From: Williamsia sterculiae
Lineage (GTDB): Bacteria > Actinomycetota > Actinomycetes > Mycobacteriales > Mycobacteriaceae
Direction of reading: 5' to 3'
DNA length: 64,000 nt
NCBI RefSeq assembly: GCF_900156495.1
Contig: NZ_FTNT01000002.1
Location: forward strand, 154,359 to 218,358
The first letter of the stretch is position 1; every line of letters starts with the position of its first letter. A program made the translations under genes and the position numbers. This document shows, in pieces, positions 2,584 to 13,010 of the stretch. Under the pieces are notes generated by a model. The model did no database searches. It was not told the origin of the DNA and saw only the letters and a program-made list of their open reading frames with translations.

Positions 2584-2880
2584 ATGCGGATCGCGCGGGT
2601 GGTCGGCCAGGTGGTCTCGACCGCCAAACCCGACTCCATCTCGGGACGGATCATCCTGTTGGTCCGCGACATCGACCCGGGCGACCCCGCCGATTCCGAG
2701 GACGACGGCGGAAGGCCTTATGCCGCTGTCGACCTGACCGGTGCCGGTCGCGGGGAGGTGGTGCTGGTGGTCAAGGGTACGGCCGCACGTGCCGCGGCCG
2801 ACGAGGCCCCACTCGACGCCGCGGCAATAGGGATCGTCGACAGTCTGGTCGTCGAGGGAAAGGTCACCTACGAGAAATGA
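2584..2880 (+). CDS. BMC-P pentameric shell vertex protein (EutN/CcmL family)
   Basis: 98 residues, the usual length of the EutN/CcmL/CsoS4 family that caps microcompartment vertices. Hallmarks are the N-terminal [15 protein letters not shown], the central LLVRDID strand, [18 protein letters not shown], and the C-terminal [13 protein letters not shown] with the near-invariant IGIVD. The ATG at 2584 follows AGGAG by 5 nt. It is the first gene of the rightward operon. Its TGA overlaps an ATG (2877-2880) that is in frame with the next BMC-H, so the two may be translationally coupled. Confidence 0.95.
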
Positions 2881-2966
2881 ACACCGCCGCAACCGAAACC
2901 CGGCACGACACGCAATCAACAGAGACCCCTGTCCAGGGACAGGAATCCGAGAAGAAGGGCACGACA

Positions 2967-3284
2967 ATGGCACCTCAGAACACCTCGACCCGCGGTCTGG
3001 GCGCGTTGGGACTGATCGAGACCAGGGGGTTGGTCGCCTCGATCGAAGCGGCCGATGCCATGGTCAAAGCCGCCAACGTCCAACTCGTCGGGCACCGTGA
3101 GATCGGCGGCGGCCTCGTCACGGTCATGGTGCGCGGTGATGTGGGTGCGGTGAAGGCCGCCACCGACGCCGGCGCCGTGGCCGCGGGCAAGGCCGGCGAC
3201 GTGGTGTCGGTGCACGTGATCCCGCGTCCCCACGAGGAGACCGAGACCGTGCTCACGGTGCTGACCCGCCCCAAGGGTGCCTGA
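2967..3284 (+). CDS. BMC-H hexameric microcompartment shell protein (second copy)
   Basis: 105 residues from the ATG at 2967, which has GAAGAAGGG 7 nt upstream. The BMC core starts at [20 protein letters not shown], continues through [17 protein letters not shown] and ends with VIPRPHEE. It closely resembles the leftward BMC-H (shared [20 protein letters not shown] and VIPRPH), so the pair probably arose by duplication. An in-frame ATG at 2877 overlapping the BMC-P stop would add a 30-residue hydrophilic, Thr/Glu-rich N-terminal extension. Both starts are plausible. The shell core is the same either way. Confidence 0.93.
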
Positions 3285-3344: not shown

Positions 3345-4727
3345 ATGGAGATGACAGCAGTCCTCGATGCTGATCTCGCGGCGTTGGCTGATGTCCGCGC
3401 GCAGGTGGCGGCGTCCAAGGCTGCCTTCGACGCGATCGACGGCGCCGACCAGGCGTTCTTGGACAACATAGTTCGTGCGATGGCCGCGGCCGGTTACGCC
3501 GCCGCCGAGGAACTCGCCCGGCTCGCGGCCGACGAGACCGGGTACGGGGTGTTCGAAGACAAGATCATCAAGAACCGATTCAACACCGGATTCGTGGCCG
3601 ACTGGATGCTCGAGCGGCGTGCGGTGGGTGTGCTCTGGGCGGACGAGGTCAACAAGGTGACGGCCATCGGCGCGCCGATGGGCCTGATCGCTGCGATCAT
3701 CCCGGTGACCAACCCCACGGCGACGGTGTTGTTCAAGAGTCTGGCGGCGGTCAAGGCGGGCAACGCCGTGGTACATGCCCCTCATCCGAGGGCCGCGCGG
3801 TGTTCTATCCGTGCTGCGGAGATCATGGCCGAGGCAGCGGTGCGTGCCGGCGCGCCGGAACATCTGGTGTCGTGCCTGCATGATCCGACACTGGCCGCGA
3901 CCCGGGAACTCATGTCGCATCGTGATGTGCGGCTGGTACTCGCGACCGGTGGGCCCGCGATGGTGGCTGCGGCCTACTCCAGCGGCAAGCCGACCATCGC
4001 GGTGGGCGCGGGCAACGTGCCCGCCTACGTGGATCGTTCCGCGGCCGACATCACCGAGGTCGCCGCGATGCTGGTCGCCTCCAAGTCATTCGACAACGGA
4101 ACCGCCTGTGTGGCAGAACAGTCGGTGGTCATCGACGCACCGGTCGCGGATCGGCTGGTCGCCGCCATGTCGCAGGCAGGCACCGCGTGGCTGACCCCCC
4201 AACAGCAGTCCGCGCTCGCGGCGACCCTGTTCGACGAGCGGGGAGGACTGCGTCCCAACGCGGTGGGGCAGTCGGCGATCGAGCTGGCCCGACTGGGCGG
4301 ATTCACCGTTCCGCCGAACACCACGGTGTTGGGTGCCGAGCTGGATGCGGTGGGTCCCGAGATCCTGCTGTCCCGGGAGATCCTCGGTCCGGTGCTCACC
4401 ATCTACCGGGAACCCGACGCCCAGGCCGGTAGACGGCGTGCGCGCGAGATCCTGGCGCTCGGCGGCGAGGGGCACACGGTCGCCGTGCACGCCACCGACC
4501 CGTCGGTCATAGCCTCGTTCAGCACCCTGCCTGCCGGTCGCATCATCGTCAACAGCCCGGCGTTGTTCGGTGGCATGGGTTACTCGTGCAACGTCGACCC
4601 GTCGTTCCAACTCGGTACCGGGACGTGGAGTGGGTCGATCTGCTCCGACAACGTCACCCCGCTGCACCTGGTGAACATCAAGCGGGTGGCACATCTCGCC
4701 CGACCGTGGCGCGGAGTCTATGAATGA
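3345..4727 (+). CDS. CoA-acylating aldehyde dehydrogenase of the BMC-associated EutE/PduP type
   Basis: 460 residues. It should oxidise an aldehyde to acyl-CoA with NAD+ and CoA, the defining core step of aldehyde-processing microcompartments. Evidence: the IIPVTNPTATVLFKSL nucleotide-binding segment, VGAGNVPAYVD, the catalytic cysteine in SFDNGTACVAEQ (Cys255, at 4107-4109) and the C-terminal TPLHLVNIKRVA block typical of EutE/PduP. No separate encapsulation peptide is obvious. The start at 3345 follows AGAAAGG; an ATG at 3351 is an alternative. It sits between BMC-H and BMC-T genes. No phosphotransacylase (PduL/EutD) is encoded nearby, so acyl-CoA itself may leave the pathway or be used elsewhere. 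Confidence 0.93.
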   Translation: MEMTAVLDADLAALADVRAQVAASKAAFDAIDGADQAFLDNIVRAMAAAGYAAAEELARLAADETGYGVFEDKIIKNRFNTGFVADWMLERRAVGVLWADEVNKVTAIGAPMGLIAAIIPVTNPTATVLFKSLAAVKAGNAVVHAPHPRAARCSIRAAEIMAEAAVRAGAPEHLVSCLHDPTLAATRELMSHRDVRLVLATGGPAMVAAAYSSGKPTIAVGAGNVPAYVDRSAADITEVAAMLVASKSFDNGTACVAEQSVVIDAPVADRLVAAMSQAGTAWLTPQQQSALAATLFDERGGLRPNAVGQSAIELARLGGFTVPPNTTVLGAELDAVGPEILLSREILGPVLTIYREPDAQAGRRRAREILALGGEGHTVAVHATDPSVIASFSTLPAGRIIVNSPALFGGMGYSCNVDPSFQLGTGTWSGSICSDNVTPLHLVNIKRVAHLARPWRGVYE

Positions 4728-4797
4728 GCCGGTCGAGGAGTTGGATTCGCGCCATGTCCCAGCCCGACGACCGGCGACCCACCCGAAGGATCTGCTC

Positions 4798-5433
4798 ATG
4801 AGCCACCAGGCGACGTTGCGTACCTATGCGTTCATCGACCGTATGCAGCCCCAGTGCGCGGCGCACGTTGCCGCCACGAGTCCCGGCGACCCGCCGCTGG
4901 CGGGGATGGCGGAACTGTTCGTCGAGATGGCACCGGGCAACGAGGTCTTCAAAGCGGCGGACATCGCATTGAAAGCGGCAGGCGTGCGTCCGGCGCTGCA
5001 GATCATCGAGCGGGAATTCGGCTTGCTGGAGTTGCATTCCGAGCAGCAGGCCGAGGTCCTCGCCGCAGGAGACGCGCTCCTCGCCGAACTGGGCATGGCC
5101 GAGTCCGACCGCATCAAACCGAAGATCGCGTCGACCCAGTTCATCACCAACGTCCACGGATACCAGGCCCAACTGCTCAACAAATGGCGCAAGGGTTCAC
5201 TTCTCATGCCCGGTGACAGCCTCTTCGTGCTCGAGGTCGCGCCGGCCGCCTACGTGGCCTTGGCGGCGAACGAGGCGGAGAAGGCCGCCGACATCAGCGT
5301 GATCGAGATCCGTGCGGTCGGTCGCTTCGGACGGCTCTTCCTCTCGGGAGGCGAGAGCGAGGTCGCCACGGCGCGCGATGCCGCAGTGGCGGCGCTCGAG
5401 CAACTCGACGGTGTGGACGAGGTCAGACGATGA
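4798..5433 (+). CDS. BMC-T tandem-domain trimeric shell protein
   Basis: 211 residues containing two BMC domains in tandem. Domain 1 covers roughly residues 15-100 (MAELFVEMAPGNEVFKAAD, REFGLLELHS) and domain 2 roughly 110-205 (GDSLFVLEVAPAAYVALAANEAEKAAD, RAVGRFGRLFLSGGESEV). Such proteins form pseudohexameric trimers, often with larger pores for metabolites or cofactors. The ATG at 4798 has GAAGGA 7 nt upstream. An in-frame ATG at 4720, overlapping the aldehyde dehydrogenase stop, would add 26 poorly conserved residues. Its stop overlaps the start of the next gene (ATGA at 5430-5433). By eye it resembles BMC-T proteins of actinobacterial loci. Confidence 0.92.
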   Translation: MSHQATLRTYAFIDRMQPQCAAHVAATSPGDPPLAGMAELFVEMAPGNEVFKAADIALKAAGVRPALQIIEREFGLLELHSEQQAEVLAAGDALLAELGMAESDRIKPKIASTQFITNVHGYQAQLLNKWRKGSLLMPGDSLFVLEVAPAAYVALAANEAEKAADISVIEIRAVGRFGRLFLSGGESEVATARDAAVAALEQLDGVDEVRR

Positions 5434-6719
5434 AAGTGCACGGTGCCGACGAGGTCGACGCGGTGGTCGCAGGCGGCGGCTCACGGTTGGTGGTCGGTGC
5501 CCGCGACCTGGTCACGCCGTTGGCTCGGGAACGGGCTCGCGACATCGGTGTCGTCATCGTCGTGGACGGCGCCGACACCGGCCCGGCGCCCGCGGAGGTC
5601 AGCACACCGAGATCGGCGCCCACCGTGGCCGTCCGGAAACCGTTGTCACAGGAACTCTCGGCGCCCCCGCCGTTGAGCCCACCGTCACCGGCACTGTACC
5701 GCCGCGGCGCCCCGCTCCCGGACGGCGTGCGGGTCGGGCTGCCGCGGCGAAACGGAGTCGTCCGAGGTCCCGCGCAGCGCGTCGGACGGGTGACCGTCGT
5801 CGGCGCGGGCAACGTCGGCATGATCGCGGCCATGCGACTGGCCGAGTCGGACCTCATCGACGAGGTGGTGTTGGTGGACATCGCCGGCCAACGTGCCGCG
5901 GGGATCGCCCTGGACATCTCCCACGCATCCCCGCTCCTGGGGTTCTCCACCAGAGTGCGCGGGGTGACGACCGTGGCCGAGGCCGGTCGTTCGGAATACG
6001 TGGTGATCACCGCCGGACGGGCGCGCACACCGGGTATGAGTCGCTCCGACCTCGTCGACACCAACGCCGCGATCGTGGGTGCCCTGACCGCCGACGCGGT
6101 GGCCGTGTCACCGGACGCGGTGTTGTTGGTGGTGACCAACCCGCTCGACGAGATGACCCAACACGCCTGGCAGGTGTCGGGATTGCCGACCGAACGGGTC
6201 ATCGGGATGGCCGGGGTGCTGGACTCGTCCCGTTTCCGTGCACTCACCGCGCTTGCGGCCGACACGTCACCCCGGCAGGTCTCCGCGTTCGCGCTCGGGA
6301 GCCACGGCGACGAGATGGTGTTGCCGCTGTCGCAGGTGACCGTCGACGGTGGGCCGATCACCGAGTCGTTGCCGGCATCGGAGGTGGACGGTTTGGTCGA
6401 CCGGACCCGCAACTCCGGTGCCGAGGTGGTGGGTCTGTTGGAGTCGGGTAGTGCGTTCTTCGCCCCAGGGTTGTCGGCGGCGCGGATGGTCTCGGCGATG
6501 ATCCGAGAGACAGGCGAGGTGCTCGCCGCCACGGTTGCTCCCCGCGGCGAGTACGGGATTCGTTCCGGTTACGTCGGTCTGCCGGTGCGGCTCGGTCGAG
6601 GTGGGCTCGCCGAGATCGTCGAATTGCCACTGACCGATGTCGAGCTCCGAGATCTGCGTACCGCCGCCGAGCGCATCGCCGAGCGGGTGGGGGCGCTCGA
6701 GGCGGTCGGTGCACGGTGA
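5430..6719 (+). CDS. Malate-dehydrogenase-fold enzyme with N-terminal BMC-associated domain
   Basis: 429 residues, about 110 longer than ordinary LDH/MDH. Residues 1-48 form a small domain with DLVTPLARERARDIGV, resembling the TP-x-A-R motif that I associate with several BMC proteins (EutQ-like N-termini). Residues 50-118 are a Pro/Arg-rich linker. From residue 120 the MDH fold is complete: GAGNVG with Asp150 (NAD+ choice), RARTPGMSR (Arg199, Arg205), TNPLD (Asn237) and catalytic His292 in GSHGDEM. Arg199 occupies the position where malate dehydrogenases have Arg and lactate dehydrogenases Gln, which predicts a dicarboxylic 2-oxo/2-hydroxy acid substrate. Likely lumenal, perhaps recycling NAD for the aldehyde dehydrogenase (inference). 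Overlaps both neighbours. Confidence 0.85.
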   Translation: MKVHGADEVDAVVAGGGSRLVVGARDLVTPLARERARDIGVVIVVDGADTGPAPAEVSTPRSAPTVAVRKPLSQELSAPPPLSPPSPALYRRGAPLPDGVRVGLPRRNGVVRGPAQRVGRVTVVGAGNVGMIAAMRLAESDLIDEVVLVDIAGQRAAGIALDISHASPLLGFSTRVRGVTTVAEAGRSEYVVITAGRARTPGMSRSDLVDTNAAIVGALTADAVAVSPDAVLLVVTNPLDEMTQHAWQVSGLPTERVIGMAGVLDSSRFRALTALAADTSPRQVSAFALGSHGDEMVLPLSQVTVDGGPITESLPASEVDGLVDRTRNSGAEVVGLLESGSAFFAPGLSAARMVSAMIRETGEVLAATVAPRGEYGIRSGYVGLPVRLGRGGLAEIVELPLTDVELRDLRTAAERIAERVGALEAVGAR

Positions 6720-7753
6720 GGGCGGTCGTGTACTCCGATCCCGGTGCGGTGTCGGTCACCGCGGTGACCGACGCCGCCGTGGTCGACCCGACGGACGCGG
6801 TGGTCGAGGTGGCGCGGGCGGGGATCTGCGGAACAGACCTGCACCTCGTCGCCGACGGGCACGGACTGCTCCCCGGGAACGTCATGGGACACGAGTTCGT
6901 CGGGGTGGTGGTGGATGTCGGGTCCGCGGTACGTGACGTGCACAGAGGTGATCGGATCGCGGGCACGGATTTCACCGCGTGCGGTTCGTGCTGGTGGTGC
7001 CGCGGCGGCAATCAGTGGGAGTGCGAGCAGCGGGCGTTCTTCGGCAGCGGTACCACATTCGGCGCCCGCCTCGACGGCGCGCAGGCCGAGTACGTCCGGG
7101 TCCCGTTCGCCGATGTCGCATTGCAGCGGCTGCCGGAGGAGCTCGACTGGGAGTCGGCGCTCTTCCTCGGAGACATCCTCGCCACCGGATACGGCGCCGT
7201 GCGACGCGCGCACTTCCGCCCCGGCGCGACGGTCGCGGTGGTCGGTGGTGGCCCGGTCGGACAGATGACCAGCCAAGCGGCGCAGGCGTGTTCAGCGGGT
7301 CCGGTGGTCGTCGTCGAGCCGGTGTCGGAGCGTCGGGAGCTGGCCGCGGACTGCGGAGCGGTCACCGCAACCCCGGAGACCGCCGTCGAGGTGCTCGCGG
7401 AGCTGACGGATGGTCGCGGGGCGGACGTGGTGATTGAGGCGGTGGGAGGCAGTCGCGGTCTGGAGACCGCGATGTCACTGGTCCGTCGCCGCGGGACCGT
7501 GGTCTCGGTGGGTGTGCACTCGGATCCCGCGTGGTCGCTTCCCGTCGCCCGCGCCTTCGCCGACGAGGTGACGCTCTCGTTCGCCATCGGCAACGCGATC
7601 CGCGATCGCGACGAGATCGTGTCGCTGCTGGCGGCCGGAGTCATCGACCCCACGGTCGTGATAGACAACCGGGTCGGGATCGAGGAGGCGCCGGAGGGTT
7701 ACAGCGCCATGGCGGCCCGGCGCAGCGTGAAGACGGTCGTGGTGTTCGATTGA
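6716..7753 (+). CDS. Zinc-dependent medium-chain alcohol dehydrogenase
   Basis: 345 residues, MDR superfamily. Catalytic-zinc ligands are in GICGTD and GHEFVG. The structural-zinc loop has the canonical C-x2-C-x2-C-x7-C spacing (ACGSCWWCRGGNQWEC). The nucleotide-binding motif is VVGGGPVGQM, followed by VVVEPVSERR. It starts with GTG at 6716, overlapping the stop of the MDH-like gene, so the last three genes of the operon are translationally coupled. In BMC pathways an alcohol dehydrogenase regenerates NAD+ by reducing part of the aldehyde, or generates the aldehyde from an alcohol. Which applies here is not visible. It ends 7 nt before the convergent regulator gene, with no hairpin between them. 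Confidence 0.9.
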   Translation: MRAVVYSDPGAVSVTAVTDAAVVDPTDAVVEVARAGICGTDLHLVADGHGLLPGNVMGHEFVGVVVDVGSAVRDVHRGDRIAGTDFTACGSCWWCRGGNQWECEQRAFFGSGTTFGARLDGAQAEYVRVPFADVALQRLPEELDWESALFLGDILATGYGAVRRAHFRPGATVAVVGGGPVGQMTSQAAQACSAGPVVVVEPVSERRELAADCGAVTATPETAVEVLAELTDGRGADVVIEAVGGSRGLETAMSLVRRRGTVVSVGVHSDPAWSLPVARAFADEVTLSFAIGNAIRDRDEIVSLLAAGVIDPTVVIDNRVGIEEAPEGYSAMAARRSVKTVVVFD

Positions 7754-7760
7754 CGGCACA

Positions 7761-9941
7761 TCATCGACCACCGCCCGATCGGTCCGCCTGTTCGGACACC
7801 TCCAACAACCGCAGGGCCAGATCGGCGCGCATCCGGTCGGAATGCTGAGAGAGGTCCAGCCCGGTCAACTTGCGGATGCGGTCGAGTCGGTAGGCAAGCG
7901 TCTTGTGGTGGATGTAGAGGATGTCCGCGGCATCCTTCTGCGAGCAGTTCGCATCGAAGTAGGCGCGGAGCGTCTTCATCAACGACCCGTCGCTGGCCTC
8001 GTCGTAATGTTGGAGTGGTCCGGTGATCTCGCGGACGAACGACTGGAAGTCCGCGTCCTCGTGGCCGAGCAACAGGCGCACGATGCCGAGGTCGTCGTAC
8101 AACGACACCGATCCGAGTCGGCGTGCGGCAGCAAGTGCGGTACGCGCCTCGGAGAACGCCTCCGGGTACTCACCGGGATGCTCGCGGGCGGTGGACAGCC
8201 CCCAGGCCATCGAGATCTCCGGGTATTCCGCGCCCAGTCGAACATTGAGGTTGCGCAGGAAGTCTCGCGATCGGTCGCGGTCCCTGACGGGGATCAGTGC
8301 GACCAGCCAGTTCCCCCTGACGCTGGCCAGGGTCGGTTGCACGGGGGTGGTGATCGCACGCACGGATTCCAGTATCGACCGGCGGGTCCGATCGGAGGTC
8401 GACAGGCTCCACTCCTCATGCTGTGCGACACTCTCGAGATTCTCCAGCGATCCGTAGAGCACCCGGTGCCAGCCCCGCAACCAGACCCCCATCTGTTGCG
8501 CGCGGCCGCGCGCACCGGATCGTTGTTCGGGTGACCCGTCCATGAGATCCCACAACACCTGATCAAGGGCCTCGGCGCGGGCGAGGCTGGCCGCCCGCTG
8601 CTGCAGATGGAACAGGGCGCACGCCAGAGCGGCCTGCGCACAGGCGACCTGGGTGCGTCCGGAGGTGATGCCCGCACCGAGGGCGCAGACCGCACCGAAC
8701 TGGTCGTCGCCGAGCTCGATGGGGTGGATCCAGACGGGTTCGCCACCGGGCGTGTGGACCATCCCGGTGTCGCGACTCAACGACTCGCGCTGTGCGGCAT
8801 AAGCGGCCTCGATGTCGACGTGTGCGGCGTCCCGCGGATACACCGCGTCGACGGCACCGTCGGCGGTCACGATCGCGACGGTGCATCCCGATTGTTCGGC
8901 CAGGGTCCGGGTCACGCGCGCGAACACCGCTCCGTTCTCCAGCACGATGTCGATCAGCGACTTCTGCAGTCGCGCGGTCTCGTCGAGTAAGGCGACCTGT
9001 GCCCGCAGGGTGGCCTGGGTGGCCTCGAGATCGTGCAACGCCGACCGTTGTGAGTCGTAGAGGCGTGCGTTGTCGATCGCGATCGTGGCGAGGTCGGCCA
9101 AGGACTCCAGACGCCGCACGTCGCGTTCGGTGAAGCTGGAGTACCGGCGACGCCACACCTCCAGAACGCCCACGAGATCGTCGCCCAGCAACAACGGGAC
9201 CGCCAGCGCCGACCGTGTCTCCTCCTGTTCGGCCAAGGACATGAAGTCGTTGCTGATCCGCAGATCCTGGAGGTAACTGTCGATCCGCGCCGCCGAGCGG
9301 TTCTGGAACACCATGCCGGCGACACCCTGGCCACGTACCATGCGTAAACGGGAGGTCTCCACCAATCGGTGACCCACACACGATTTCATCCGCAGTTCGT
9401 CCCCCTCGCGGAGGAACACGCCGCAGATGTCGGACTCACTCATCCGGAGGGTCTCGGTGGTGATGGTCAACAACACCTGGTCGAGATCGCTCACGCTCAA
9501 CACCTGCTTGGCCAGATCGCCGACCACCCGCGATTCGACCCGGTAGTCCTCCACCTCGACCCGAGCGGCGTGCAGAGCCCGGATCAACCCGAGCCAGACG
9601 CACATGCGGGTCAGCAGTGCGAGGTCCACCGGACCGCGGTGAACGGTCGACGGCGACGACGGCGGGGGATCAGTAGGCAGGACGATCGCGTAATCACCCG
9701 CGCAGACACCACGTCTGACCAGGATCCCGCTACCGCACTCCAGTGCGGTCAGGGCCGACTGGTCCGGTTCGTATCCCGAATACCTGCGAACCGGGGTCCA
9801 GGTGAGATCGTCGCGTCGGACGATCACCGTCCCGTCGTCTCCGAACACACCGGTCGCCGCCGACTCGGCCTGGTGCGGGTCCTCGGGGACGGTCGCGAGC
9901 AGGCGCTCGAGCCGTGACCGGATGTCGTTGTCGGGCATCAT
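7761..9941 (-). CDS. GAF-domain PucR-family transcriptional regulator
   Basis: 726 residues. An N-terminal region of unclear fold (1-140) is followed by a GAF sensor domain (about 150-300; VRGQGVAGMVFQNRSA, ALAVPLLLGDDLVGVLEVW), a coiled linker and a second ligand-like region, then a GGDEF-like CdaR/PucR middle domain and a C-terminal PucR helix-turn-helix (about 660-715; LRAYFDANCSQKDAADILYIHHKTLAYRLDRI). PucR regulators usually activate catabolic operons when their inducer is present. Being convergent with the rightward BMC operon and 31 nt downstream of the EutJ-like gene, it is the prime candidate to control the locus, possibly via the 2460-2496 repeat (inference). Confidence 0.9.
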   Translation of the reverse strand: MMPDNDIRSRLERLLATVPEDPHQAESAATGVFGDDGTVIVRRDDLTWTPVRRYSGYEPDQSALTALECGSGILVRRGVCAGDYAIVLPTDPPPSSPSTVHRGPVDLALLTRMCVWLGLIRALHAARVEVEDYRVESRVVGDLAKQVLSVSDLDQVLLTITTETLRMSESDICGVFLREGDELRMKSCVGHRLVETSRLRMVRGQGVAGMVFQNRSAARIDSYLQDLRISNDFMSLAEQEETRSALAVPLLLGDDLVGVLEVWRRRYSSFTERDVRRLESLADLATIAIDNARLYDSQRSALHDLEATQATLRAQVALLDETARLQKSLIDIVLENGAVFARVTRTLAEQSGCTVAIVTADGAVDAVYPRDAAHVDIEAAYAAQRESLSRDTGMVHTPGGEPVWIHPIELGDDQFGAVCALGAGITSGRTQVACAQAALACALFHLQQRAASLARAEALDQVLWDLMDGSPEQRSGARGRAQQMGVWLRGWHRVLYGSLENLESVAQHEEWSLSTSDRTRRSILESVRAITTPVQPTLASVRGNWLVALIPVRDRDRSRDFLRNLNVRLGAEYPEISMAWGLSTAREHPGEYPEAFSEARTALAAARRLGSVSLYDDLGIVRLLLGHEDADFQSFVREITGPLQHYDEASDGSLMKTLRAYFDANCSQKDAADILYIHHKTLAYRLDRIRKLTGLDLSQHSDRMRADLALRLLEVSEQADRSGGGR

Positions 9942-9972: not shown

Positions 9973-10797
9973 TCATGTCGAGGACTGCGCGATGCCGAGC
10001 GGTGTGATCAGCTGCGCGTGGGGGTAGGTGTGGACCGGCCTGTGGAGGTAGGCGGAGATGATCTGTGCGGCACCGGGGTACATCAGCGCACCACCCGCGA
10101 GATGGACCTCGAGGTCGTCCGCGCCCCGGGTGAGATCGGCGATGTTGTGGGCTATTCGTTCGAATCCGGGGTGGAGGATCGCCGCGAAGGCGTCGTCAGG
10201 CTCTTCTCGTTTGCGTTGTTCGGCCTCCGCGATGTCCACGCCGAGTGCACCGGACAGGATCAGATCGAGGTGGTGTCCGCCCCCGGGACGATCATCGAGT
10301 TCGGTCAGATCACCGCCACGGAAGATGCCGACCCCGGTCGACCCGCCGCCCACGTCGACGACCACCCCGTCGATCACCTGCAGGGCATGGTTTGCCGCGC
10401 TCACCTCGTCCAGCAGAGTCACCTCATCGAATCCGGCGGACTCCAGAACGAATCGGCAGGCGCGGCTCTCTGCTTCTCCGACGCACGGAGGGTATGCGGT
10501 TGCCGCGGTGGACAACTCGACACCCAGAACATCCTCGGCCCGCTGTCTCAGCGTCGTCGCTGCCGCGGATGCCGCGGCGAAGTCGACGACCACCCCGTCG
10601 CGGACCGCGGCGGTCCGGATGGCGTCGATCCACACGGGTAGTCCGGTCGCATCGACCACGGTGACAACGCAGGTCGCGGTGCCCAGATCGACACCGGTGC
10701 GCAGGTCGGCACCGTCGGGAGAGCGAGGGTGACCGAACACCGAACCGGCCAGCTCCAGCACCTCATGAACACCGCGATGCGGCGCGTGCGCTGTCAT
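9973..10797 (-). CDS. eutJ: EutJ-like actin-fold (Hsp70-type) ATPase
   Basis: 274 residues. Actin/Hsp70 nucleotide-binding motifs are readable: phosphate-1 GVDLGTATCVV (about 35-45), phosphate-2 VVVDVGGGSTGVGIF and the adenosine motif AGGALMYPGA. The size and lack of a peptide-binding domain match EutJ, a putative chaperone found in ethanolamine and other BMC operons. Its role is not settled; help in assembly or reactivation of cargo is proposed. The start at 10797 is chosen because GAGG lies 8 nt upstream; ATGs at 10803 and 10875 fit less well. It lies between a zinc alcohol dehydrogenase and the PucR regulator, all on the same strand. Confidence 0.82.
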   Translation of the reverse strand: MTAHAPHRGVHEVLELAGSVFGHPRSPDGADLRTGVDLGTATCVVTVVDATGLPVWIDAIRTAAVRDGVVVDFAAASAAATTLRQRAEDVLGVELSTAATAYPPCVGEAESRACRFVLESAGFDEVTLLDEVSAANHALQVIDGVVVDVGGGSTGVGIFRGGDLTELDDRPGGGHHLDLILSGALGVDIAEAEQRKREEPDDAFAAILHPGFERIAHNIADLTRGADDLEVHLAGGALMYPGAAQIISAYLHRPVHTYPHAQLITPLGIAQSST

Positions 10798-10934
10798 GGT
10801 CATGTCCTCGGTGACGGTCGGCGGGTGACTCACGTCGAGGACGATACGCCCGCTCGGGTGATGGCAGGTTGTCATCGGTGGATAGTCGGGACCGGGGTGG
10901 CTGTCTCAGAAGGACAACGACCGGCACACAGTGC

Positions 10935-12041
10935 TCAGGGTGTGGGGAAGGTCAGGACGGCCTTGGTGACATCGCCGCGGTGGACGGCGTCGAGCGCGGT
11001 GTTGATGTCGGCGAAGTCGAAGGTGGTGATCAGCCGGTCGAACGGAAACCGCCCCTCGCGATGGAGTTCGATCATTCGCGGCACGAAGGCGCCCGGGATC
11101 GCGTCACCTTCGACGACACCCACGAGAGTCCGGCCAAACAGGAGGTGTCCCTGGTCGACCGTGACATCGTTGGGCATACCCTGGAATCCGACGGTCGCGC
11201 AGACACCTGGGGTCTGTAGGCATTCGAGGGCGGCACGGACGACGTCGGAGAACCCGATGCAGTCCACCGAGTAGTTCACACCCAACCCGCCGGTGATCTC
11301 CTGGATACGGGCTACGGGATCGGTGGTCGCCGAGTTGATGGCGTGCGTGGCACCCAGATCGCTTGCGGTGTCGAGCCGCGCATCCGACACGTCGACCGCG
11401 ATGATCGTGTCGCAGCCCGCGACGATCGCGGCCAACAGTGCCGACAGCCCCACCGATCCCATCGCGAAAATCGCGATCGTCGAACCGGGCTCCGGGTCGA
11501 GGGTGTTCAGCACGGCCCCGGCACCGGTCTGGATGCCGCAACCGAGCGGGCCGAGGATGTCCAGCGGGATGTCGTCATCCACCCTGATGGCGTTGTTCTC
11601 GGCGACGACCGCGTGCTGCGCCCACGACGACTGCCCGAACCACGCGCCGAGGACCGGGGTACCGTCGCGATGCAGCGGCGTGGAACCGTCGGTCCGCGCA
11701 CCGACCAGATTCAACGGCACGAACGCGCGACAGTGCTGCGGGAGATCGGCTGTGCAGTGGTCGCACTCACCGCAATGCGCGTAGGAGAGAACCACCGGGT
11801 CACCCACCGACAGCAGCGTCACCCCCGCGCCGATCCGTTCGACGACACCGGATCCCTCGTGTCCGAGCACGATCGGTGTCTGACCAGGTGCCGGTGCGGC
11901 GATCACCCCCAGATCCGTGTGGCAGATACCGACTCCGACCATGCGCACCAGTACCTCGTGGGGTCGAAGGTCGTCGACATCGACGTCGGTGACCTCCAAC
12001 TCGGTGTTCGCGTGGTTGAGAATTGCGGCGGTGGTCTTCAT
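10935..12041 (-). CDS. Zinc alcohol dehydrogenase, aryl/benzyl-alcohol dehydrogenase-like
   Basis: 368 residues, MDR superfamily, class-III-like. Zinc ligands are in GICHTD and LGHEGSGVVE. The structural loop HCGECDHCTADLPQHC has C-x2-C-x2-C-x7-C spacing. The segment LGPLGCGIQTGAGAVLN and the coenzyme motif AMGSVGLSA with Asp in AVDVSDARL indicate NAD(H) use. It most resembles benzyl-alcohol (XylB/AdhC-type) dehydrogenases. The start at 12041 has GAGGG about 10 nt upstream. It lies 137 nt upstream of the EutJ-like gene on the same strand, so it may belong to the BMC regulon, but that is not proven. A palindromic operator-like site lies about 190 nt upstream. Confidence 0.85.
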   Translation of the reverse strand: MKTTAAILNHANTELEVTDVDVDDLRPHEVLVRMVGVGICHTDLGVIAAPAPGQTPIVLGHEGSGVVERIGAGVTLLSVGDPVVLSYAHCGECDHCTADLPQHCRAFVPLNLVGARTDGSTPLHRDGTPVLGAWFGQSSWAQHAVVAENNAIRVDDDIPLDILGPLGCGIQTGAGAVLNTLDPEPGSTIAIFAMGSVGLSALLAAIVAGCDTIIAVDVSDARLDTASDLGATHAINSATTDPVARIQEITGGLGVNYSVDCIGFSDVVRAALECLQTPGVCATVGFQGMPNDVTVDQGHLLFGRTLVGVVEGDAIPGAFVPRMIELHREGRFPFDRLITTFDFADINTALDAVHRGDVTKAVLTFPTP

Positions 12042-12233
12042 CGTGGATGTCCCTCGGTACGTCGTCTGTTGCGCGGCGCGGAGAGGTCTGCGCCGTTCGG
12101 AGATCCGGTCCCGCCGGACGGGACGCCGAAACCACGTCACATCGTCGTGTTCCGATGATCTCGAGCTGTGTGTCTCTCCGCACGTGGCGACGCTAGTCAT
12201 CGAGAACCCCGCCGACACACCGATCACCGCACT

Positions 12234-12252
12234 GCTATCCGATCCGGATAGC
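12234..12252. promoter_or_regulatory. Palindromic operator-like site upstream of the aryl-alcohol dehydrogenase
   Basis: A perfect 19-nt inverted repeat GCTATCCG-ATC-CGGATAGC lies in the 285-nt gap upstream of the alcohol dehydrogenase gene. A third half-site, GGATAGC, follows about 35 nt away, near 12290. The symmetry and spacing look like a dimeric repressor site. The cognate regulator is unknown. The rest of the gap shows nothing I can assign. Confidence 0.45.
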
Positions 12253-12326
12253 ACCACGCCGGGGTCGTGGTCGACCAGGGATAGCCGCTCGACGCCGCGG
12301 GTGCCTTCGGGAGGCCGATGGCGGCC

Positions 12327-13010
12327 TCAACAGCCCAACAGGTCGGCCAACTCACCCAGATCAGTGACGTGGAACAGGTTCGCCGGGTCGCGCGCCTCTT
12401 CTTTGCGCTCCGGACCCCATTCGTGCGGGCGTTCGACGTAGGCGGTCTGCAGTCCGTACGAGCGGGCCGCGTCGAGGTCCCAGGAGTGGGTCGCGACCAT
12501 CAGCACCTCGTCCGGCGCGACGTCGAGAATCCGTGTGATCCCCAGATAGGTGTCGGCCGCGGGCTTGTAGTGACCCCAGATGTCGGCGCCACCGATGAAA
12601 TCCCAAGCGAGGTCACTGTGTTTCGCCATCTCGACCAGCAGCGCGACGTTGCCGTTGCTCAATGTGCCGACGATGTAGCGGCTCCGCAGCCGTCGCAGGG
12701 CCGCCGAGACATCGGGCCATCCGGGGATCACATGCCAGGCGTGAACCGCCGCATCCAGTTGTCCGTCGGTGGGGGTGACACCACGATCGTGGAGCAACAC
12801 GGTCAGCGATTCCCGATGCAGGTCGTCGAGCAGGGCCCACGGCCGCCGGCCCGCCTCCACGTCGCGCAGGGCCGGGCTGTAGGCGCGTCGCCAATCGCGG
12901 GTCAGTGCGTGCGCATCGACCTCGGGAAAGATGCCCGCCATCGCGTCGCCGACACCGGTGTGCCAGTCGGTGACGGTGCCGAAGGTGTCGAAGGCGAGAA
13001 CCTTGATCAT
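12327..13010 (-). CDS. Haloacid dehalogenase type II family hydrolase
   Basis: 227 residues. It starts with the nucleophile motif LAFDTFGTVTDWHTGVG (Asp in FDTFGT, as in L-2-haloacid dehalogenases), then motif II LSNGN, the lysine motif GHYKPAADTYLG and the C-terminal MVATHSWDLDAARSYGL block typical of type II dehalogenases. It should hydrolyse 2-haloacids or similar substrates in the cytoplasm. The ATG at 13010 has GAGG 8 nt upstream. Open reading continues upstream past 13010, but that part is antisense to the neighbouring protease gene and has no homologous features, so it is excluded. It is on the same strand as the protease, 50 nt away. Confidence 0.88.
   Translation of the reverse strand: MIKVLAFDTFGTVTDWHTGVGDAMAGIFPEVDAHALTRDWRRAYSPALRDVEAGRRPWALLDDLHRESLTVLLHDRGVTPTDGQLDAAVHAWHVIPGWPDVSAALRRLRSRYIVGTLSNGNVALLVEMAKHSDLAWDFIGGADIWGHYKPAADTYLGITRILDVAPDEVLMVATHSWDLDAARSYGLQTAYVERPHEWGPERKEEARDPANLFHVTDLGELADLLGC

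Follow-up and report, generated by a model that had tools for sequence, protein, structure and literature searches.

A malate dehydrogenase with a putative EutQ-like N-terminal anchor module in a BMC locus of Williamsia sterculiae

Results

Gene content of the BMC locus

The stretch of DNA analysed here (64,000 nucleotides from Williamsia sterculiae, hereafter the window) carries near its left end a BMC locus. Three BMC domains were found in the genome, each of them at this locus. Leftmost in the window, on the reverse strand, lie the genes for the second of its BMC-H shell proteins (89–376; Pfam BMC, 6e-27), a HAD-family hydrolase (384–1382; Pfam HAD_2) and a DUF7064/DUF7065 protein of unassigned function that is conserved in actinobacterial loci of this type (1331–2470). 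The hydrolase ends, after a long linker, in a short, helix-like and conserved tail (about 387–446 on the reverse strand; similar to DELLDAVRRV in relatives), which resembles an encapsulation peptide. On the forward strand follow a BMC-P vertex protein of the EutN/CcmL family (2530–2880; Pfam), an EutM-like BMC-H shell protein (2877–3284; Pfam, NCBIfam), a CoA-acylating-type, EutE/AdhE-like aldehyde dehydrogenase (3345–4727; Pfam, NCBIfam) on which no extension resembling an encapsulation peptide was seen, a CcmP-like BMC-T shell protein (4720–5433, probable start ATG 4798; Pfam BMC, with an NCBIfam CcmP score of 243 bits that lies below the family cut-off), the malate dehydrogenase (MDH) studied herein (5430–6719) and a zinc alcohol dehydrogenase that is conserved beside the MDH in actinobacterial loci (6716–7753; Pfam). 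The reverse strand then encodes a regulator of the GAF plus PucR type, conserved in this type of locus (7761–9941; Pfam), an MreB/Hsp70-like EutJ (9973–10875; PRK15080, 275 bits, over the cut-off) and a second, class III-like zinc alcohol dehydrogenase (10935–12257; NCBIfam). The latter is not conserved in loci of this type, nor is a haloacid-dehalogenase-like gene near 12327–12965 conserved in relatives, and both were for this reason left out of the reasoning about the pathway.

As to the type of the compartment, the MIC1 passages of Axen 2014 (PMC4207490) list a lactate/malate dehydrogenase and an MreB-like protein, with no PTAC and no signature enzyme. The same set is present here, namely an aldehyde dehydrogenase, a lactate/malate dehydrogenase, two zinc alcohol dehydrogenases, a hydrolase and the MreB-like EutJ, and neither a PTAC nor a signature enzyme was recognised at the locus. 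The locus fits a MIC1-like BMC, the match being one of gene content as described in that paper. As regards the separate phosphatase gene of MIC1, the locus has a second HAD protein, and a tyrosine-phosphatase-like gene seen in Pseudonocardia-type loci was not identified at it. An ARO-type identity was dropped, as the ARO paper mentions neither a malate/lactate dehydrogenase nor EutJ, and a review on ethylene glycol yielded no link to this locus.

Just to the left of window position 1 lies a cassette (locus L106, 13212–18387, on contig C8 of genome G000) that encodes a stand-alone PEP-utiliser mobile domain, proteins of 478 and 206 residues and a PPDK-like protein. The 478-residue protein gave no match in Pfam or NCBIfam. 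The PPDK-like gene occurs in 26 of the compared loci, the cassette is kept next to many BMC loci of the type, and we regard it as a possible signature enzyme system, of which the locus itself shows none.

The malate dehydrogenase and its catalytic core

The reading frame at 5430–6719 on the forward strand was confirmed, with an ATG start and a product of 429 residues, and its start overlaps the stop of the BMC-T gene by 4 nt (ATGA), as is likewise the case in most homologues. On the combined evidence of Pfam, NCBIfam, invariant residues and an AlphaFold2 model, we annotate the product as a malate dehydrogenase with a putative N-terminal BMC anchor module. The model falls into three zones, namely a confident one at residues 1–47 (pLDDT about 95), a mostly disordered one at residues 48–117 and, again confident, the MDH core, an LDH-like enzyme of the NAD type (residues 118–427; 5781–6710, forward strand).

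The earlier note on this DNA had proposed an MDH-fold enzyme that keeps all MDH residues, including Arg199 at the position that discriminates malate from lactate, and both proposals are borne out. In particular, Pfam places Ldh_1_N at residues 120–259 (1.7e-36) and Ldh_1_C at residues 264–416 (1.1e-22), the NCBIfam model PRK06223 for malate dehydrogenase scores 315 bits (cut-off 283), and the closest solved structures for the core are the LDH-like tetrameric MDHs of Thermaerobacter (7aob) and Chloroflexus (4cl3; Foldseek, E about 1e-37), which share its fold and active site and lack the 117-residue extension of the Williamsia enzyme. What is more, Arg199, Met203, Arg205, Asn237, Asp265, Arg268, His292 and Asp150 are invariant in 50 of 50 aligned MDHs. 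Arg199 corresponds to LDH position 102 and is of the malate type, Asp150 is of the NAD type, and the catalytic Arg109, Asp168, Arg171 and His195 in LDH numbering are present in all 50 sequences; the loss of NAD binding that would have spoken against the proposal was thus not seen. Judged by its domains and active-site residues, the product is a complete LDH-like, NAD-dependent malate dehydrogenase.

The N-terminal module and the linker

By alignment, the N-terminal extension comprises 117 residues and consists of a folded module, a Pro/Ala-rich linker and a conserved motif inside the linker. The module (residues 1–47; 5430–5570, forward strand) is modelled as a small beta-alpha-beta-alpha-beta domain and carries a VTPLARE motif within DLVTPLARERARDIG at residues 26–40; a small domain with a BMC-type motif, followed by a Pro-rich linker, had indeed been described in the earlier note. 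Residues 1–48 alone gave no match in Pfam, NCBIfam or PDB sequence searches. A profile built from the aligned N-termini of 20 relatives, on the other hand, matched residues 4–45 of E. coli EutQ with a moderate 23.2 bits, as compared with 15 bits for the best of 177,635 PDB sequences and, one stand-alone homologue aside, 12.3 bits for the best non-MDH reading frame among about 10,000 in the loci of relatives. E. coli EutT, also considered as a carrier of the module, reached only 3 bits. A comparison by hhalign gave a probability of 91% (9.5e-7) for homology of MDH residues 2–45 with the EutQ N-terminus. On the strength of these profile comparisons, the module is homologous to the N-terminal H1/H2 part of EutQ. 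A Foldseek comparison of the N-terminal model with PDB folds returned no significant match, and the relation to EutQ is therefore without structural support.

The correspondence is informative because residues 9–41 (H1/H2) of Salmonella EutQ associate with the shell, while its residues 62–99 (H3/H4) associate with cargo peptides, EutQ itself being an enzyme plus linker (PMC12487888). As the MDH module aligns to H1/H2, the extension would correspond to the shell-binding part of EutQ. EutQ and the MDH further resemble each other in that each has the homologous VTPxARE module, a flexible region after it, an enzyme domain and a place in a BMC locus (PMC12487888). They differ in the partner domain, a cupin acetate kinase in EutQ and an MDH here, as well as in the region between the domains, where EutQ has its cargo-binding helices and the MDH has a short LYRRGAP motif. 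Namely, no H3/H4 helices are predicted in the MDH extension, whose linker is disordered in the AlphaFold2 model, and the role of bridging shell and cargo may consequently be missing. A classical encapsulation peptide, i.e. a terminal amphipathic helix of 15–20 residues, was also considered and rejected, the N-terminus being a folded domain of 47 residues instead.

The linker (residues 48–117; 5571–5780, forward strand; pLDDT mostly below 50) varies in length between 39 and 145 residues across 43 homologues. Overlooked in the earlier note, a conserved short linear motif, PPSPALYRRGAPL, lies within it at residues 84–96 (5679–5717, forward strand). The pattern [LV][YFHLT]R[RN] is found in 42 of the 43 homologues (shuffled sequences: mean 0.7, maximum 4), Leu89 is invariant in all 43, and the motif is kept in proteobacterial relatives despite much shorter linkers.

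The module on other proteins

When 296 genomes of the phylum were scanned with the module profile, matches at E<=1e-4 were obtained in 11 genomes other than our own. In 10 of these a shell gene is close by, and in the eleventh the matching protein is PduL-like and has an aldehyde dehydrogenase gene as its neighbour. The carriers are EutQ, a PduL-type protein (at its C-terminus), a flavoprotein-like protein, the present MDH and short stand-alone proteins, all named from their sequences except E. coli EutQ. In seven loci (L123, L125, L127, L130, L132, L134 and L135), PduL-type proteins with a C-terminal VTPLARE module adjoin BMC-H genes; as in the MDH, the same module is fused to a BMC enzyme, with the difference that this enzyme is of the phosphotransacylase type and that the MDH carries the module at its N-terminus. 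Among the actinobacterial loci that were compared, only the MDH was found to bear the module, and the Acidimicrobiia loci L078 and L141 add a stand-alone copy. Of the short stand-alone proteins (L078, 12461–12814; L119; L120; L122), several have a C-terminal stretch resembling EutQ H3/H4, and it is possible that these proteins are separate shell-cargo adaptors. All in all, residues 1–47 match almost only proteins from BMC loci plus the shell-binding region of EutQ (PMC12487888), and the earlier proposal of an N-terminal BMC-type targeting or assembly module gains support from EutQ homology and gene context.

Co-occurrence of the extension and shell genes

Among the fetched loci, the MDH extension and shell genes occur together in 42 and are both absent from 50, with 3 discordant cases (42/1/2/50; Fisher p 2e-23, a value to be taken as a guide only, since the rows are related). 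For loci L002–L030 the available flanks span only about 1.5 kb, the BMC-T gene being normally the immediate neighbour of the MDH gene. Two of the discordant loci, L093 and L063, start at contig ends, and in the third, L039, the extension lies just upstream in another frame, the linker being frameshifted.

A maximum-likelihood tree groups the BMC-linked MDHs in one cluster, inside which two extension-less sequences, L049 from Gordonia jinhuaensis and L041, are nested. The genomes of these two (G400 and G566; G400 was equated with the species of L049 because the MDH sequences and their starts agree) contain zero BMC domains. Extension and BMC have thus been lost together, twice. That these two relatives keep the MDH without a BMC means that the enzyme can serve the cytosol. 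The Gordonia jinhuaensis protein (L049, 10076–11011), an MDH 70% identical to ours, without the extension and from a genome without a BMC domain, offers a natural control for separating targeting from catalysis.

In proteobacterial and Acidimicrobiia relatives, the aldehyde dehydrogenase, the BMC-T protein and the MDH are kept as a core and the other neighbours differ. The MDH would accordingly seem to meet a need that these loci have in common, and not that of a single pathway. In particular, the proteobacterial loci L086, L095, L097, L098, L100 and L102 combine this core with glutamine-synthetase-like, RidA, dehydrogenase and FAD-oxidoreductase genes, and some of them also carry a glutamate-synthase-like trio and a branched-chain-type ABC transporter. 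These loci would use a different substrate, perhaps an amine.

Discussion

The earlier note had considered an MDH cargo unusual and had concluded from it that a new substrate enters the lumen, a claim that we do not uphold. Namely, the passages on PVM and MIC1 loci in PMC4207490 already list lactate/malate dehydrogenases in both, and that of PVM, which belongs to the same Pfam families as ours and stands in a different kind of locus, is proposed there to recycle NAD+ for its compartment, so that ordinary oxaloacetate and malate suffice as an explanation. The surprise is therefore smaller than previously claimed, MDH genes in BMC loci being known. In another respect it is larger, since the putative anchor can be recognised as a module that other proteins share and whose binding role in EutQ is known. 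The MIC1 passages in PMC4207490 make no mention of an anchor module on its MDH, and no description of an EutQ-N-like module on a malate dehydrogenase was found in the literature searched, which has most subscription papers outside it.

Taken from sequence comparison, the MDH is quite probably a shell-anchored BMC cargo. In the mechanism that we propose, the EutQ-N-like module would tether the enzyme to the inside of the shell via the flexible linker, and the MDH, an enzyme that would likewise be tied to the shell, would do part of the job that EutQ does in the Eut compartment. In the lumen, oxaloacetate and NADH would be converted to malate and NAD+, and the renewed NAD+ would feed the CoA-acylating aldehyde dehydrogenase and perhaps also the alcohol dehydrogenase. 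On whether recycling of NAD+ is the main role of the enzyme we are evenly divided; the zinc alcohol dehydrogenase of the locus is an alternative candidate recycler, which counts against it. As to the fate of malate, no other Ldh_1, MalateDH-SF1 or Ldh_2 protein was found in the genome besides the MDH of the locus, and two malate:quinone oxidoreductases (Mqo) are encoded. From this we propose that oxaloacetate is reduced in the lumen and malate reoxidised by Mqo, whereby malate would leave through a shell permeable to it and its electrons would pass via the two Mqo to respiration. The recycling idea precedes this work, having been put forward for PVM in PMC4207490, while the Mqo shuttle is newly proposed here and should be regarded as tentative.

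Could the substrate of the MDH cargo instead be a 2-oxo or 2-hydroxy dicarboxylate that is specific to the pathway and arises in the compartment, the enzyme not being a general recycler of NAD+? The uncharacterised phosphotransfer cassette is present at many such loci, and an unusual acid is conceivable. That said, the same MDH with the same invariant Arg199 site stands beside very different gene sets, with the PPDK-like cassette in actinobacteria as opposed to glutamine-synthetase-like, RidA and ABC-transporter genes in proteobacteria, and a shared cofactor role fits better; we consider the specific acid unlikely. One can also argue that assembly is the main function of the MDH, whose tetramer would display four anchors and four linker motifs and cross-link shell and cargo, catalysis being secondary. 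The MDH is after all the only bearer of the module in most compared loci, the linker motif hardly varies, no encapsulation-peptide-like extension is seen on the aldehyde dehydrogenase, and EutQ, an enzyme plus linker, provides a precedent (PMC12487888). However, catalytic residues invariant in 50 of 50 sequences argue for selection on catalysis, which makes this alternative rather improbable. Finally, a housekeeping NAD-malate dehydrogenase that merely sits in a BMC operon, as its being the sole Ldh/Mdh-superfamily gene in the genome and the retention of the 70% identical MDH in Gordonia jinhuaensis might suggest, is very unlikely, given that two Mqo genes can fill this role in the TCA cycle, that the extension is gone in both relatives without a BMC and that the gene overlaps that of the BMC-T protein.

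We therefore lean, with some reserve, towards the explanation in its entirety: a malate dehydrogenase of a MIC1-like BMC, fixed to the inside of the shell through an EutQ-N-like module and renewing the NAD+ of the lumen. A broader generalisation, doubtful at present, would see in the VTPLARE module a general, swappable metabolosome shell anchor on cofactor-recycling enzymes (the acetate kinase EutQ, the PduL-type phosphotransacylase and the MDH), which here would give rise to a malate/oxaloacetate redox shuttle across the shell. The sole dehydrogenase of the Ldh/Mdh family in the genome would then be restricted to the organelle, and Mqo would take up the electrons outside.

For MIC-type metabolosomes, whose loci do not have the usual core of alcohol dehydrogenase and PTAC (PMC4207490), the malate shuttle, if true, would be a new answer to the question of how cofactors are recycled inside the shell. 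What is more, a portable folded anchor that several enzymes of unrelated kinds share would usefully complement the short encapsulation peptides as a targeting tag, and would provide a marker for BMC cargo.
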